This document shows, piece by piece, positions 58,491 through 64,000 of a stretch of DNA of 64,000 bases. Origin of the DNA: Hyalangium ruber (GTDB lineage Bacteria > Myxococcota > Myxococcia > Myxococcales > Myxococcaceae); contig NZ_JAXIVS010000011.1 of NCBI RefSeq assembly GCF_034259325.1, positions 248,001-312,000 on the forward strand, in the 5' to 3' direction. The notes under the pieces were generated by a model. The model saw only the letters and a list, made by a program, of their open reading frames with translations. It was not told where the DNA came from and ran no database searches. Each line of letters starts with the position of its first letter. The first letter of the stretch is position 1. The position numbers and the translations under genes are program-made.

Positions 58491-58537
58491 AAAAGCACGA
58501 AGGGCCCAACCGCTGCACGCGGCCAGGCCCCTTCGTG
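58491..58537 (-). terminator. Terminator downstream of mrpC
   Basis: Plus-strand arms CACGAAGGG (58496-58504) and CCCTTCGTG (58529-58537) pair perfectly. On the minus strand the stem is followed by CTTTTGG. It ends mrpC transcription before the MutS-like gene. Confidence 0.7.
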
Positions 58538-58561
58538 TTCGTTCGTTCGTTCGTTCGTTCG
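58537..58561. repeat. Tetranucleotide microsatellite (GTTC)6 at the mrpC 3' end
   Basis: Six uninterrupted copies of GTTC (58537-58560) plus one G lie 14 bases beyond the mrpC stop, directly against the terminator stem. A pure 4-base repeat of this length is unusual in the window. Confidence 0.9.
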
Positions 58562-58575
58562 GGAAGAGGCGTTCT

Positions 58576-59322
58576 CTACTTCTCCTTGCCAGCGATCTTC
58601 CGCAGCGCCTTCTGGTCACGCACGCAGAGGATGCGGCCCACGTTGCCCAGCACGCCGTCACGCTTCATCTCGTTGATGAGCGTCGACACGAACGAGCGCG
58701 AGGCGCCCACCAGATCCGCCAGGTCCTGCTGGGTGATGCCGCGCAGGTCGGTCTCACCGCCGTGCGGGCAGCGCTCACCGTGCGCCTCCACCAGCGTCAG
58801 GAGGGTGTCGGCCAGCCGCGCCGGAACCTCCTTGAAGGTCAGCCCCAGCACGCGCTTGCGCAGGGCACGCACGCGCTCGGCGTACGCACGCACCACGTCC
58901 AGCGCCAGGGCAGGCCGCGCCTCGAGCTGCGCGCGGAAGTCACGGCCCTCGATGGACCACACCTCGGCCTCGCCCGAAGCGATCGCCATCTCCTCGATGG
59001 ACGTGCCCTCGGGACGGAACACCTCGCCGAAGATCTCCCCGGGGCGAAGGATGCTCACCACCGAGCGGGTGCCGTTCTTGCCTACCCGCATCAGCCGCAC
59101 GCGGCCCGACTTGAGCAGGTACACGCGGTCCGTCGTGTCGCCGTAGCGGTAGATGACCGAGTTGTGCGGGAACGACTCGACCTTGAAGTAACCCTTGAAG
59201 TCGATCGCCTCCTGGCCAGGGACGATCTTGTTGGCGGTCACCATCATGCCGGAGCTGGTGGTCTGCAGCGGGGCAACGACATTGGAACCGATGGGGCCGA
59301 GGGGACGGTTGAAGCCGTGCAT
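58576..59322 (-). CDS. mrpC: MrpC, CRP/FNR-family developmental transcription factor
   Basis: A 248-residue regulator, the same length as I recall for M. xanthus MrpC. The ATG at 59322 has AGGAGTG ahead; a GTG three codons upstream is less likely. With this numbering, T21/T22 coincide with the residues reported as Pkn14 phosphorylation sites, and Met26/Met27 with the start of the short form MrpC2. The cNMP-binding beta-roll spans about 40-150 (VIYRYGDTTDRVYLLKSGRV, RPGEIFGEVFR). The C-terminal winged HTH (about 170-235) contains GITQQDLADLVGASRSFVST. MrpC activates fruA and many developmental genes and represses itself. It is preceded by a sigma-54 promoter and by mrpB and mrpA on the same strand. 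Confidence 0.96.
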   Translation of the reverse strand: MHGFNRPLGPIGSNVVAPLQTTSSGMMVTANKIVPGQEAIDFKGYFKVESFPHNSVIYRYGDTTDRVYLLKSGRVRLMRVGKNGTRSVVSILRPGEIFGEVFRPEGTSIEEMAIASGEAEVWSIEGRDFRAQLEARPALALDVVRAYAERVRALRKRVLGLTFKEVPARLADTLLTLVEAHGERCPHGGETDLRGITQQDLADLVGASRSFVSTLINEMKRDGVLGNVGRILCVRDQKALRKIAGKEK

Positions 59323-59384
59323 TTGGGTCACTCCTGCGTGAGGTGGGTTGGCTGCTTCCCGAGCAACGAACGCAGGACCTCTTT

Positions 59385-59400
59385 TCCAAGGATTGTGCCA
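59385..59400 (-). promoter_or_regulatory. Sigma-54 (-24/-12) promoter of mrpC
   Basis: The minus strand reads TGGCAC-AATCC-TTGGA from 59400 to 59385, against the consensus TGGCAC-N5-TTGCW: a perfect -24 element and one mismatch in the -12 element. It predicts a start near 59374 and a leader of about 52 bases. MrpB, encoded upstream, is a sigma-54 activator. Confidence 0.8.
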
Positions 59401-59483
59401 ACCCGGGAATGAAATGCCGCCGGGGTAACAAACCCAAGAATGCTGGGTACTTAGCGCTACAGGTTGAAATCCCCGGCTCCGCT

Positions 59484-59542
59484 GTGTCCGAAATTTGAAA
59501 CGGAACGTTCAAACAGTCTGATCAACGTGAACGAAACGTTCA
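59484..59542 (-). promoter_or_regulatory. Candidate MrpB enhancer sites overlapped by a candidate MrpC site
   Basis: Two palindromic elements share AACGTTCAA (59504-59512 and 59535-59543), 31 bases apart (three turns): TTTGAA-N8-TTCAAA (59494-59513) and TGAACG-AAA-CGTTCA (59528-59542). They lie about 120-170 bases upstream of the predicted start, as enhancers for a sigma-54 activator would. GTGTC-N8-GAAAC (59484-59501) matches the reported MrpC consensus GTGTY-N8-RACAC with one mismatch and overlaps the first palindrome. Confidence 0.6.
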
Positions 59543-59605
59543 ATCCGGGGAGGGCTTTGTTCCGGGACCGACAGTGTCCGGCCGGAGACGGGCACGCCAA
59601 GCAAC

Positions 59606-61042
<1,437 letters not shown>

Positions 61043-61051
61043 GCGGCTCTG

Positions 61052-62026
61052 TCACAAGGCGAAGGTGAGCGTGAACACCAGGCCCGGCTCCGCACTTCCC
61101 TCGGCGGAGAGATCTCCCCCCTGATTGAGCATGACACGCCGGAGCGCCGCCAGGGAGAGCCCCGCCCCGCGCGCCAGGCGAGAGCCGAAGGGTTCGAACA
61201 AGGTCCCTCGCTCCTCAGGCGGCAGAGCGGCGGCCGAGTCCGTGAAGACCATGAGGGGCTGGCCCGCGGGCCCGTGCCGTAGGTGGACCGTGATGTGGGA
61301 GTCCTCGGTCTGGCCCATGGCGATGTTGAGCAAGAGCTGGGCGAGCACGGGCCGCAGTCGGGTGCCATCCACCTGCACCCGGGGCAGGTCCGGCTCCTCT
61401 TCTATTTTGAGTTCGATGCGGCGCTCGGCCAGCTCCGGCGCCACCATGGCCTGGGCCTCCTGCACGACGGAGCGCAGCGGCTGGGGCTCCAGGCGGGGCA
61501 CGCTGTCGCGGCCATACTCGGACAGGAGCCAGAGCATCCGCTCCATGGTGCGGATCTCCCGGTTGGCGATGGTCAGCCGGCGCTTGTCCCGGTCCGACAG
61601 CCCCGTGTTCCGCTGGAGCGTCTGCACCGCCATCTTCACGGAGCTCAATGGGTTGCGGATCTCATGGCTCAGCGAGGAGGAGAGCTTGGAGATCTGCACC
61701 GGCGGGGCGCCCTCGAGAAGGAGGTCCAGGTCCTGGATGACGGCGATGGCCTCGTCCCCCTCCATTCCGAGCACCAGTCGCAGCGGGGAGTGCTCCTCGC
61801 CGCCGAAGCGGGCGGAGATGAACTCCACGGCGCGGCGGTTCTCCCGCGCGCGCGCATCCAGCTCCCGCGCCTTTTCGGGAGAGATGCCGAGCGCCACGTG
61901 GATCGGGGCGTCCAGCAGCTCCGCGGTCGGGCGGTGGAGTAGGGCAGGGCAGTCGCCCTCGATACGGGTAACCCGCAAGGTCGGAGACCAGGCGAGCTGA
62001 ACGGCTTGTAAGAGCTGGGCGTTCAT
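61052..62026 (-). CDS. mrpA: MrpA, cytoplasmic histidine kinase with degenerate ATP-binding G1 box
   Basis: A 324-residue kinase-like protein without TM segments. A PAS-like domain (about 1-108) is followed by the H-box SSLSHEIRNPLSSVKMAVQT (His121) and the helix ending REIRTMERMLWLLSEYGRD. The N-box region LAQLLLNIAMGQTEDS keeps its Asn. The G1 box, normally DxGxG, reads FTDSAAALPPEERGTLFEPF without the glycines, while GAGLSLAALRRVML keeps a G2-like form. Kinase activity may thus be weak, and a phosphatase role towards MrpB is plausible. The start is uncertain: ATG at 62026 leaves room for divergent promoters, while ATG at 62071 overlaps the start of the divergent gene. Confidence 0.9.
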   Translation of the reverse strand: MNAQLLQAVQLAWSPTLRVTRIEGDCPALLHRPTAELLDAPIHVALGISPEKARELDARARENRRAVEFISARFGGEEHSPLRLVLGMEGDEAIAVIQDLDLLLEGAPPVQISKLSSSLSHEIRNPLSSVKMAVQTLQRNTGLSDRDKRRLTIANREIRTMERMLWLLSEYGRDSVPRLEPQPLRSVVQEAQAMVAPELAERRIELKIEEEPDLPRVQVDGTRLRPVLAQLLLNIAMGQTEDSHITVHLRHGPAGQPLMVFTDSAAALPPEERGTLFEPFGSRLARGAGLSLAALRRVMLNQGGDLSAEGSAEPGLVFTLTFAL

Positions 62027-62069
62027 TTGTGGCACCGGAACATACCGAGTAACCTTCCGCTCTGTCCCC

Positions 62070-64000
62070 ATGCACAGTGCCGCTCGTTTTCCGAAGCATC
62101 TTGTTTCGAGCTTCCTGTTTTTGTCCGGGGCCACGGCTCTGGTCTATGAGCTCGTCTGGTCCAAGTACCTGGCCAATGTCCTGGGCAATAGCGGGCAGGC
62201 CCACGCCGTGGTGCTGGCTACCTTCATGGGCGGGCTGGCGCTCGGTGCCTACGTCTTCGGGCGCACCGCGGACCGGGTGAAGAACCCCCTGCGCATGTAC
62301 GGCCTGCTGGAGCTGGGGGTGGGCCTCTATGTCTTCCTGTTCCCCTCGGTGCTGGAGTTCCTGAGCGCGGCGTACCTGGCCGTGGCGGTGAACATGCCCG
62401 AGGGCGTCCGGGTGGTGCCCAAGCTGGTCCTGGCGGCGCTCTCGCTGGTGGTGCCCACCATGCTGATGGGCGGCACCCTGCCGGCGCTGGTGCGGCACTT
62501 CTCCTCCAAGCTCTCCCACGTCCAGCGCGAGCTGGCGCGCCTGTACGCCATCAACAGCCTGGGCGCCGCGATGGGCGTCTTCCTGGCGGGCACCACCCTG
62601 GTCCCCGCCATGGGCCTGGCCGTGTCGTCGCGGATCGCCGCGGCCCTCAACATCCTGCTGGCGCTGGTGGCCATCGTCGTGGCGCGCCGCTACCCGCCCG
62701 CCCAGTCCGCGGAGGCCGCCGCCTCTCAGGAGGCTTCCTCGGAGGAGGGGGACAACGTCTCTTATCCCCGGCTGGCGGTGCGTGCCGCCCTGGTGGGGGT
62801 GATGCTCTCCGGCTTCACCTCGATGCTCTACCAGGTGACGTGGATCCGGCTGCTGACCATCGTCCTGGGCGCCTCCACCTATGCCTTCACCCTCATCCTG
62901 ACCGCCTTCATCCTCGGCATCGGCCTGGGCAGCTTCTGGCTGATGACCCGGAAGGGGAAGGGTGACCTGCTGCGCCTGTTCGGCCACCTGCAGGTGGGGC
63001 TGGTGCTCAGTGTGTGCGTGGCGCTGCCGCTCTACGTCCGGCTGCCGAACCTCTTCAGCAACGCCCAGTGGTTGATGAACCACACGGCGGATGCCTGGTC
63101 GCTCTACCAGATCATCACCTTTGGCTTCTGCTGCGTGGTGCTGCTGGTGCCTACCTTCTTCATGGGCGCGGCCTTCCCCGCCGCGGCGCGCGTGGCCACC
63201 GCCAAGGTGGAGGAGGTCGGCCGCGAGCTGGGCGGCGTGTACCTGTGGAACACCGTAGGCACCATCCTGGGCTCGGCCCTGGGCGGTCTGGTGCTCATGC
63301 CGTGGTGGGGCATGGAGGGCAACTTCATCGCCGGCGTGGTGGGCAACCTCCTGGCCGCCGGTGCCGCCTTCTACGCCTCGCCCCAGCGCCCCGCGAAGCC
63401 CCTGCGCGCCTTCGGTGGGCTGGGTGTGGGGCTGGCCGCCGGTGTCATCTTCCTAGTGGCCATGAATGGCTGGGCCGTGACGCTGTCGGGCATCGCCCAG
63501 GTCCGCGTGCCGCGCCACAAGCCGCCGGCCTACCAGTCCCAGGTCGACTGGTTCCAGCGCGACGTGAAGGCTCAGTTCTACCAGGACGACACCTTCGCCA
63601 GCGTGCTCGTGGGTCAGCTCAACGAGCACCGCTTCATGCGCATCAACGGGAAGATCGACGCCTCCAATGGCGACGACACCGAGACGATGGTGCTCGCCGG
63701 TCACCTCGGCATGCTGCTGCACCCGCGTGAGCCGGAGAACGCGCTCGTGGTGGGCGCCGGCGCCGCCATCACCACCGGCTCCATGCTCGCCCACCCGGTC
63801 AAGCACCTGGACATGGTGGAGATCTCCCCCGCCGTCATCGAGGCGGCGCGCCTGTTCAAGGACGACAACCGCAACGCCGTCGATGATCCGCGCACGCACG
63901 TCCACGTCGACGACGCGAAGACCTTCATGGCCCTGGCGCCGCGCAAGTACGACCTGATCGTCAGCGTGCCGTCCAACCCCTGGGTGGCCGGCGTCTCCGG
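62070..64000 (+). CDS. Fused MFS-like membrane protein/spermidine synthase-like protein, truncated by window end
   Basis: At least 643 residues; the frame is still open at the right edge. The N-terminal two thirds hold about a dozen TM helices in two MFS-like halves (FLFLSGATALVYELVWSKYL, LATFMGGLALGAYVFGRTAD, LSLVVPTMLMGGTLPALVR; then MLSGFTSMLYQVTWIRLLTI, VVLLVPTFFMGAAFPAAARV). The soluble part begins near 490 and resembles the SAM/aminopropyltransferase fold of SpeE: FYQDDTFASVLVG, INGKIDASNGDDTETMVLAG, ALVVGAGAAITTGSML, LDMVEISPAVIEAARLF and DDAKTFMALAPRKYDLIVS. Proteins of this fusion type are common in deltaproteobacteria and their substrate is unknown. The ATG overlaps the alternative mrpA start on the opposite strand. 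Confidence 0.9.
   Translation, partial: MHSAARFPKHLVSSFLFLSGATALVYELVWSKYLANVLGNSGQAHAVVLATFMGGLALGAYVFGRTADRVKNPLRMYGLLELGVGLYVFLFPSVLEFLSAAYLAVAVNMPEGVRVVPKLVLAALSLVVPTMLMGGTLPALVRHFSSKLSHVQRELARLYAINSLGAAMGVFLAGTTLVPAMGLAVSSRIAAALNILLALVAIVVARRYPPAQSAEAAASQEASSEEGDNVSYPRLAVRAALVGVMLSGFTSMLYQVTWIRLLTIVLGASTYAFTLILTAFILGIGLGSFWLMTRKGKGDLLRLFGHLQVGLVLSVCVALPLYVRLPNLFSNAQWLMNHTADAWSLYQIITFGFCCVVLLVPTFFMGAAFPAAARVATAKVEEVGRELGGVYLWNTVGTILGSALGGLVLMPWWGMEGNFIAGVVGNLLAAGAAFYASPQRPAKPLRAFGGLGVGLAAGVIFLVAMNGWAVTLSGIAQVRVPRHKPPAYQSQVDWFQRDVKAQFYQDDTFASVLVGQLNEHRFMRINGKIDASNGDDTETMVLAGHLGMLLHPREPENALVVGAGAAITTGSMLAHPVKHLDMVEISPAVIEAARLFKDDNRNAVDDPRTHVHVDDAKTFMALAPRKYDLIVSVPSNPWVAGVS

Follow-up and report, generated by a model that had tools for sequence, protein, structure and literature searches.

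Which letters of the mrpC promoter would be read by MrpB and which by MrpC, and how far do these sites reach across the myxobacteria? For Myxococcus xanthus the regulatory model is already in print. According to passages of PMC10701913 (citing McLaughlin 2018), MrpB binds UAS1 and UAS2 and MrpC competes with it for overlapping sites; the promoter carries the MrpC sites BS1, BS3, BS4 and BS5, with BS3 and BS4 overlapping the UAS, and MrpC binding, competition and negative autoregulation are all described there for this species. The MrpC consensus TGTYN8RAC, which we used for matching, was derived from ChIP, and PMC4320627 places at least six MrpC sites in the M. xanthus mrpC promoter, within −261 to −84 relative to the start codon, puts the centre of the ChIP peak at −247, and describes hundreds of developmental genes as having MrpC bound at their promoter regions. 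The sequence-only reading of the DNA studied here had put forward the model of competition at overlapping sites correctly.

The control region in question is intergenic, between mrpB and mrpC inside an mrpABC locus, and belongs to the window, i.e., the whole 64-kb stretch that was analyzed from the 10.77-Mb genome of Hyalangium ruber. All three genes lie on the minus strand: mrpC (58576–59322) codes for a CRP/Fnr-family regulator of 248 aa with Pfam domains cNMP-binding and Crp HTH, mrpB (59606–61042) for an NtrC-type sigma-54 enhancer-binding response regulator of 478 aa with receiver, Sigma54_activat and HTH_8 domains, and mrpA (61052–62134) for a histidine kinase with HisKA and HATPase_c. 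The identity of the locus follows from synteny and from sequence identity, which over the matched parts reaches 95% for MrpC and 85% for MrpB of M. xanthus (locus L008); among named relatives, the closest MrpC is that of Hyalangium versicolor (99%), followed by that of a Myxococcaceae MAG (98%). The mrpC start was taken as the ATG at 59322, where the list of open reading frames instead had a GTG at 59331. A short run of TTCG tetranucleotide repeats lies just 3′ of mrpC (58535–58561). The mrpA start as called may be misplaced; the 466 bp preceding it gave no match to the MrpB, MrpC or −24/−12 patterns. An mrpABC locus and promoter almost identical to those of Myxococcus also appear under the name Comamonas sp. 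KCTC 72670, in a record that is probably mislabelled or mixed.

The promoter combines a −24/−12 element with a cognate enhancer-binding protein, as is expected for sigma-54 enhancer-dependent transcription. The element, TGGCACAATCCTTGG (59386–59400, minus strand), is one mismatch from the searched pattern TGGCACRNNNNTTGC and corresponds to the near-consensus element previously placed at 59400–59385. Upstream of it, exactly two copies of AACGTTCAA occur in the window, at 59504–59512 and 59535–59543, with the pitch of 31 bp that the sequence-only reading had given; none of 100 dinucleotide shuffles held two copies (shuffle mean 0.09). That reading had proposed AACGTTCAA as the MrpB recognition sequence and expected it to be conserved in orthologous promoters. 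Alignment upheld the conservation, with AACGTTCAA as half of a longer unit: the likely MrpB site is a 17-bp palindrome, TTGAACG-N3-CGTTCAA, and the 9-mer was rejected as the whole recognition unit because the symmetric 17-mer is what persists in other families.

The two palindromes noted earlier are therefore present with redrawn boundaries. The distal putative MrpB site (UAS), TTGAACGTTTCGTTCAC (59527–59543, minus strand), has 13 of the 14 arm letters, and the proximal one, TTGAACGTTCCGTTTCA (59496–59512, minus strand), has 12/14 and lies 31 bp from it. They begin at −221 and −190 from the mrpC start here and at −229 and −198 in M. xanthus L008, where the proximal palindrome spans −198 to −182 and ends at the UAS distance of 182 bp from the start codon given in a passage of PMC10701913. 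Two MrpB-type sites are thus found upstream of the −24/−12 promoter at the published distance. When up to three mismatches were allowed, the tandem arrangement at 31-bp pitch was found at a single place in the genome, and a reversed control pattern gave one match.

The MrpC-type sites had to be reassigned. A one-mismatch consensus had been reported at 59484–59501, and it is indeed there as TGTCCGAAATTTGAA (59485–59499, plus strand), overlapping the proximal MrpB site; the overlap of the reported stretch with this palindrome, given as 8 bases, comes to 6 bp with the new boundaries, and the TGT at 59485–59487 falls outside the palindrome. As the main MrpC site it is replaced by a perfect, BS5-like consensus that the earlier reading had missed and that is the best MrpC site of the region, TGTCGGTCCCGGAAC (59559–59573, minus strand), 30 bp upstream of the distal MrpB site. 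Neighbouring consensus matches lie at 59575–59589 and 59613–59627. MrpC consensus sites are found, then, both upstream of the MrpB sites and over the proximal one, and none overlapping the distal site was identified in the window's promoter. In M. xanthus L008 a perfect consensus spans −259 to −245, inside the reported range of sites and at the centre of the ChIP peak. A weak BS1-like candidate, TGTTACCCCGGCGGC (59416–59430, minus strand), upstream of the −24 element, is tentative, its pattern being present in only 9 of 44 rows of family promoters. The window holds nine perfect matches to TGTYN8RAC against a shuffle average of 14.6, so a single match means little alone and conservation must decide.

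How well are these sites kept within the family Myxococcaceae? From two locus sets (43 and 40 loci) we drew 52 promoter stretches, the window included, and merged near-identical ones into 44 rows, 43 of them distinct since L031 and L129 are one contig counted twice. L022, whose contig ends at 159 bp, and L032, with a partial mrpC, were left out. The best match to the palindrome has at least 12/14 arm letters in all 44 rows, and a second match (at least 9/14) follows at 31 bp in 38 rows and at 32 bp in four (42/44 together); the sites of L027 and L107 were not paired by the automatic procedure. At the distal site the arms remain constant, whereas N3 varies and is mostly TTT, TTC or AAA, as expected for a site with two-fold symmetry. 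In 36 of the 44 rows a perfect MrpC consensus precedes the distal site by 5–60 bp, in 35 of them by 30–31 bp, and three decoy patterns together give one hit in the 44 rows; for this count a match inside mrpB in eleven Corallococcus-type promoters was excluded as distal site. A GGACA half-site follows the proximal MrpB site in 35/44 rows, and a −24/−12 match lies 30–110 bp upstream of the start in 43/44.

Between the MrpB sites and the promoter there is one more conserved block, TGTAGCGCTAAGTAC (59447–59461, minus strand). The genome contains its 14-base core, GTAGCGCTAAGTAC, exactly once, and its GCGCYAAGTA is present in 30 of the 44 rows. To judge from its letters, the block is possibly a degenerate or additional CRP-type site (TGT-N10-AC).

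The palindrome could also be traced beyond the family. A search of 195 Myxococcota genomes gave 93 with an MrpC relative at E ≤ 1e-60, from which 22 divergent loci were tested, 21 from seven other families plus L107 from the window's own. mrpB lies upstream in 20 of the 22, and a site of at least 12/14 is present in 17 of these 20 (without L107, 16 of 19 in the seven other families). The misses are L104 and L118, with 11/14 only, and L117, which keeps mrpB and has no palindrome. Of the spacer lengths 0–8 only 3 works: it finds 17 of the 20 loci, lengths 0–2 and 4–6 none, 7 two and 8 one. Spacing between the sites varies from about 19 to 45 bp in other families, so the three-turn pitch is not universal. 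In the two mrpB-less loci, L121 and L122, no palindrome match of 11/14 was found. Their MrpC relatives, about 50% identical, come from small MAG genomes, one of them from sheep colon. Altogether, of the eight sampled families with mrpB-mrpC, seven have the putative operator next to mrpB and upstream of mrpC; as a likely palindromic MrpB site it is common to most of the order's families sampled here.

The perfect MrpC consensus has a different distribution, being mostly confined to the window's family. Among the 19 loci from other families, one (L106) has it at the corresponding upstream place, 29 bp before its MrpB-type site, and L103, L105 and L120 have it elsewhere. Hardly any variation is seen in the recognition helix of either MrpB or MrpC; that of MrpC is nearly constant over 23 loci, so lost specificity is not the obvious reason for the missing MrpC sites. 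The L103 genome, which is among those that keep the palindrome, may be that of Vulgatibacter incomptus. For Vulgatibacter and Anaeromyxobacter, a passage of PMC8561891 states that there are no reports of fruiting.

At the level of whole genomes the palindrome is rare. Exact TTGAACGWWYCGTTCAA occurs in 43 of the 195 genomes, at one place in each, and the reversed control in none. Of these sites 42 lie between mrpB and mrpC, and 41 are 175–223 bp upstream of the mrpC match; L158 (G029) also has its site between mrpB and an mrpC that was missing from the first MrpC list, and the site of L159 (G157), around 2055, is not at mrpC but close to where a long open frame ends (3′). No exact copy was found in the 24 genomes of family f3 (G031–G054), all of which are without an MrpC relative at E ≤ 1e-60, though they belong to the same order. 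The Hyalangium ruber genome has no exact copy either, its distal site having one arm mismatch. Exact matches to the shorter form TGAACG-N3-CGTTYA number six in this genome; five of them are away from mrpC, lie within long open frames with G- or C-bearing spacers, and were rejected as an MrpB regulon. With at most one mismatch, 9 of the 17 palindrome places in eight genomes are mrpC promoters. The putative MrpB operator apparently comes close to one target per genome. In one genome (G122), GTGAACGGAACGTTCAA lies in an intergenic position upstream of a glycosyltransferase-like gene (L154, around 1500), a possible second MrpB target there.

We consider it highly probable that the region is the mrpC promoter, that MrpB would activate it through the palindromes and sigma-54, and that MrpC would repress its own gene by displacing MrpB. 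Phosphorylated MrpB would bind both 17-bp palindromes, which are separated by about three helical turns and should share one face of the DNA, and from there, roughly 110–140 bp upstream of the element at 59386–59400, would activate sigma-54 RNA polymerase for mrpC transcription. MrpC would occupy its perfect site upstream of the distal palindrome and also the weaker site over the proximal one, so that MrpB would be displaced and mrpC repressed. That the same proteins bind in Hyalangium ruber, and that the palindrome is MrpB's operator, we infer from the sequence comparison. Against this reading stand the proximal site, which in most family rows matches the palindrome poorly (11/14), the three mrpB-bearing loci L104, L117 and L118 that fall short of 12/14, the exact site of L159 away from mrpC, and the differing pitch in other families.

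Could the palindrome be primarily MrpC's own operator, its conservation reflecting MrpC autoregulation and not MrpB binding? M. xanthus has several MrpC sites across this stretch (PMC4320627), and passages of PMC10701913 make BS3 and BS4 overlap the UAS. However, TGTYN8RAC is a different sequence, found separately 30 bp away, and the palindrome is kept in families that have no perfect MrpC consensus at the corresponding place; the two mrpB-less MrpC relatives are without the palindrome although their MrpC recognition helix is nearly unchanged. We therefore hold this explanation to be quite unlikely. Binding by a third factor, with the conservation near mrpB a coincidence of linkage, appears very unlikely: AskB is reported on the M. 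xanthus mrpC promoter in vitro in a passage of PMC7643160, but the MrpB binding described in print falls at this very distance, and in seven of the eight mrpB-mrpC families the site adjoins the gene of an enhancer-binding protein and precedes its presumed target.

Motif likeness might also come mainly from common descent of DNA under no constraint, or from base composition, given that many of the family promoters are closely related and the 44 rows are not independent. This is barely credible, since the sequence around the palindrome has diverged between families while the palindrome persists, the arms are constant where the spacer switches from TTT to AAA or back, and none of 629 permuted arm arrangements reaches more than 2 of the 20 loci, against 17 for the true arms.

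Activation by MrpB and self-repression by MrpC remain the preferred reading, and in it the promoter shares with that of M. xanthus the gene order, the two MrpB-type sites, the MrpC-type site upstream, another over the proximal MrpB-type site, and the −24/−12 promoter; it differs in belonging to another species and in having only the weak candidate for BS1. Tandem palindromes at this distance from the −24/−12 element and the domain set of MrpB agree with the general NtrC-type enhancer and sigma-54 architecture, whereas the operator sequence is specific to the mrpC locus. The perfect match at 59559–59573 resembles MrpC operators as given in PMC4320627, with the difference that here the spacing from the distal MrpB site is fixed at 30–31 bp (35/44 rows). 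The palindromic consensus and its reach beyond the family were not found in the literature searched by title and abstract, a scope that did not include McLaughlin 2018. The regulatory model is not new, and the M. xanthus palindrome sequence itself is not claimed as unpublished; what is added is the proposed palindromic operator, a further candidate MrpC site at a fixed spacing, and the distribution across the order.

With a defined MrpB operator, MrpB binding could be separated from MrpC binding; in 2023 the authors of PMC10701913 stated that they had been unable to design mutations separating the two. Handles for this are the TGT outside the proximal palindrome and the promoters of other families that have the operator with no adjacent perfect MrpC consensus.

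Since the MrpC self-site is mostly restricted to the window's family, activation by MrpB may have come first and self-repression by MrpC afterwards, an order read from presence and absence without a tree, in which degenerate MrpC sites would escape. We give an even chance to the wider proposal that MrpB, sigma-54 and mrpC form an ancient, nearly single-target, order-wide switch predating fruiting-body development, to which MrpC self-repression, acting through a site fixed at 30 bp from the operator, was joined at a later time and chiefly in the window's family. If this is true, the later self-repression turned an on-switch into a noise-limited developmental timer. mrpC is a master gene of myxobacterial fruiting-body development, and the distribution of these sites gives a testable sequence of steps by which a multicellular programme may have evolved.
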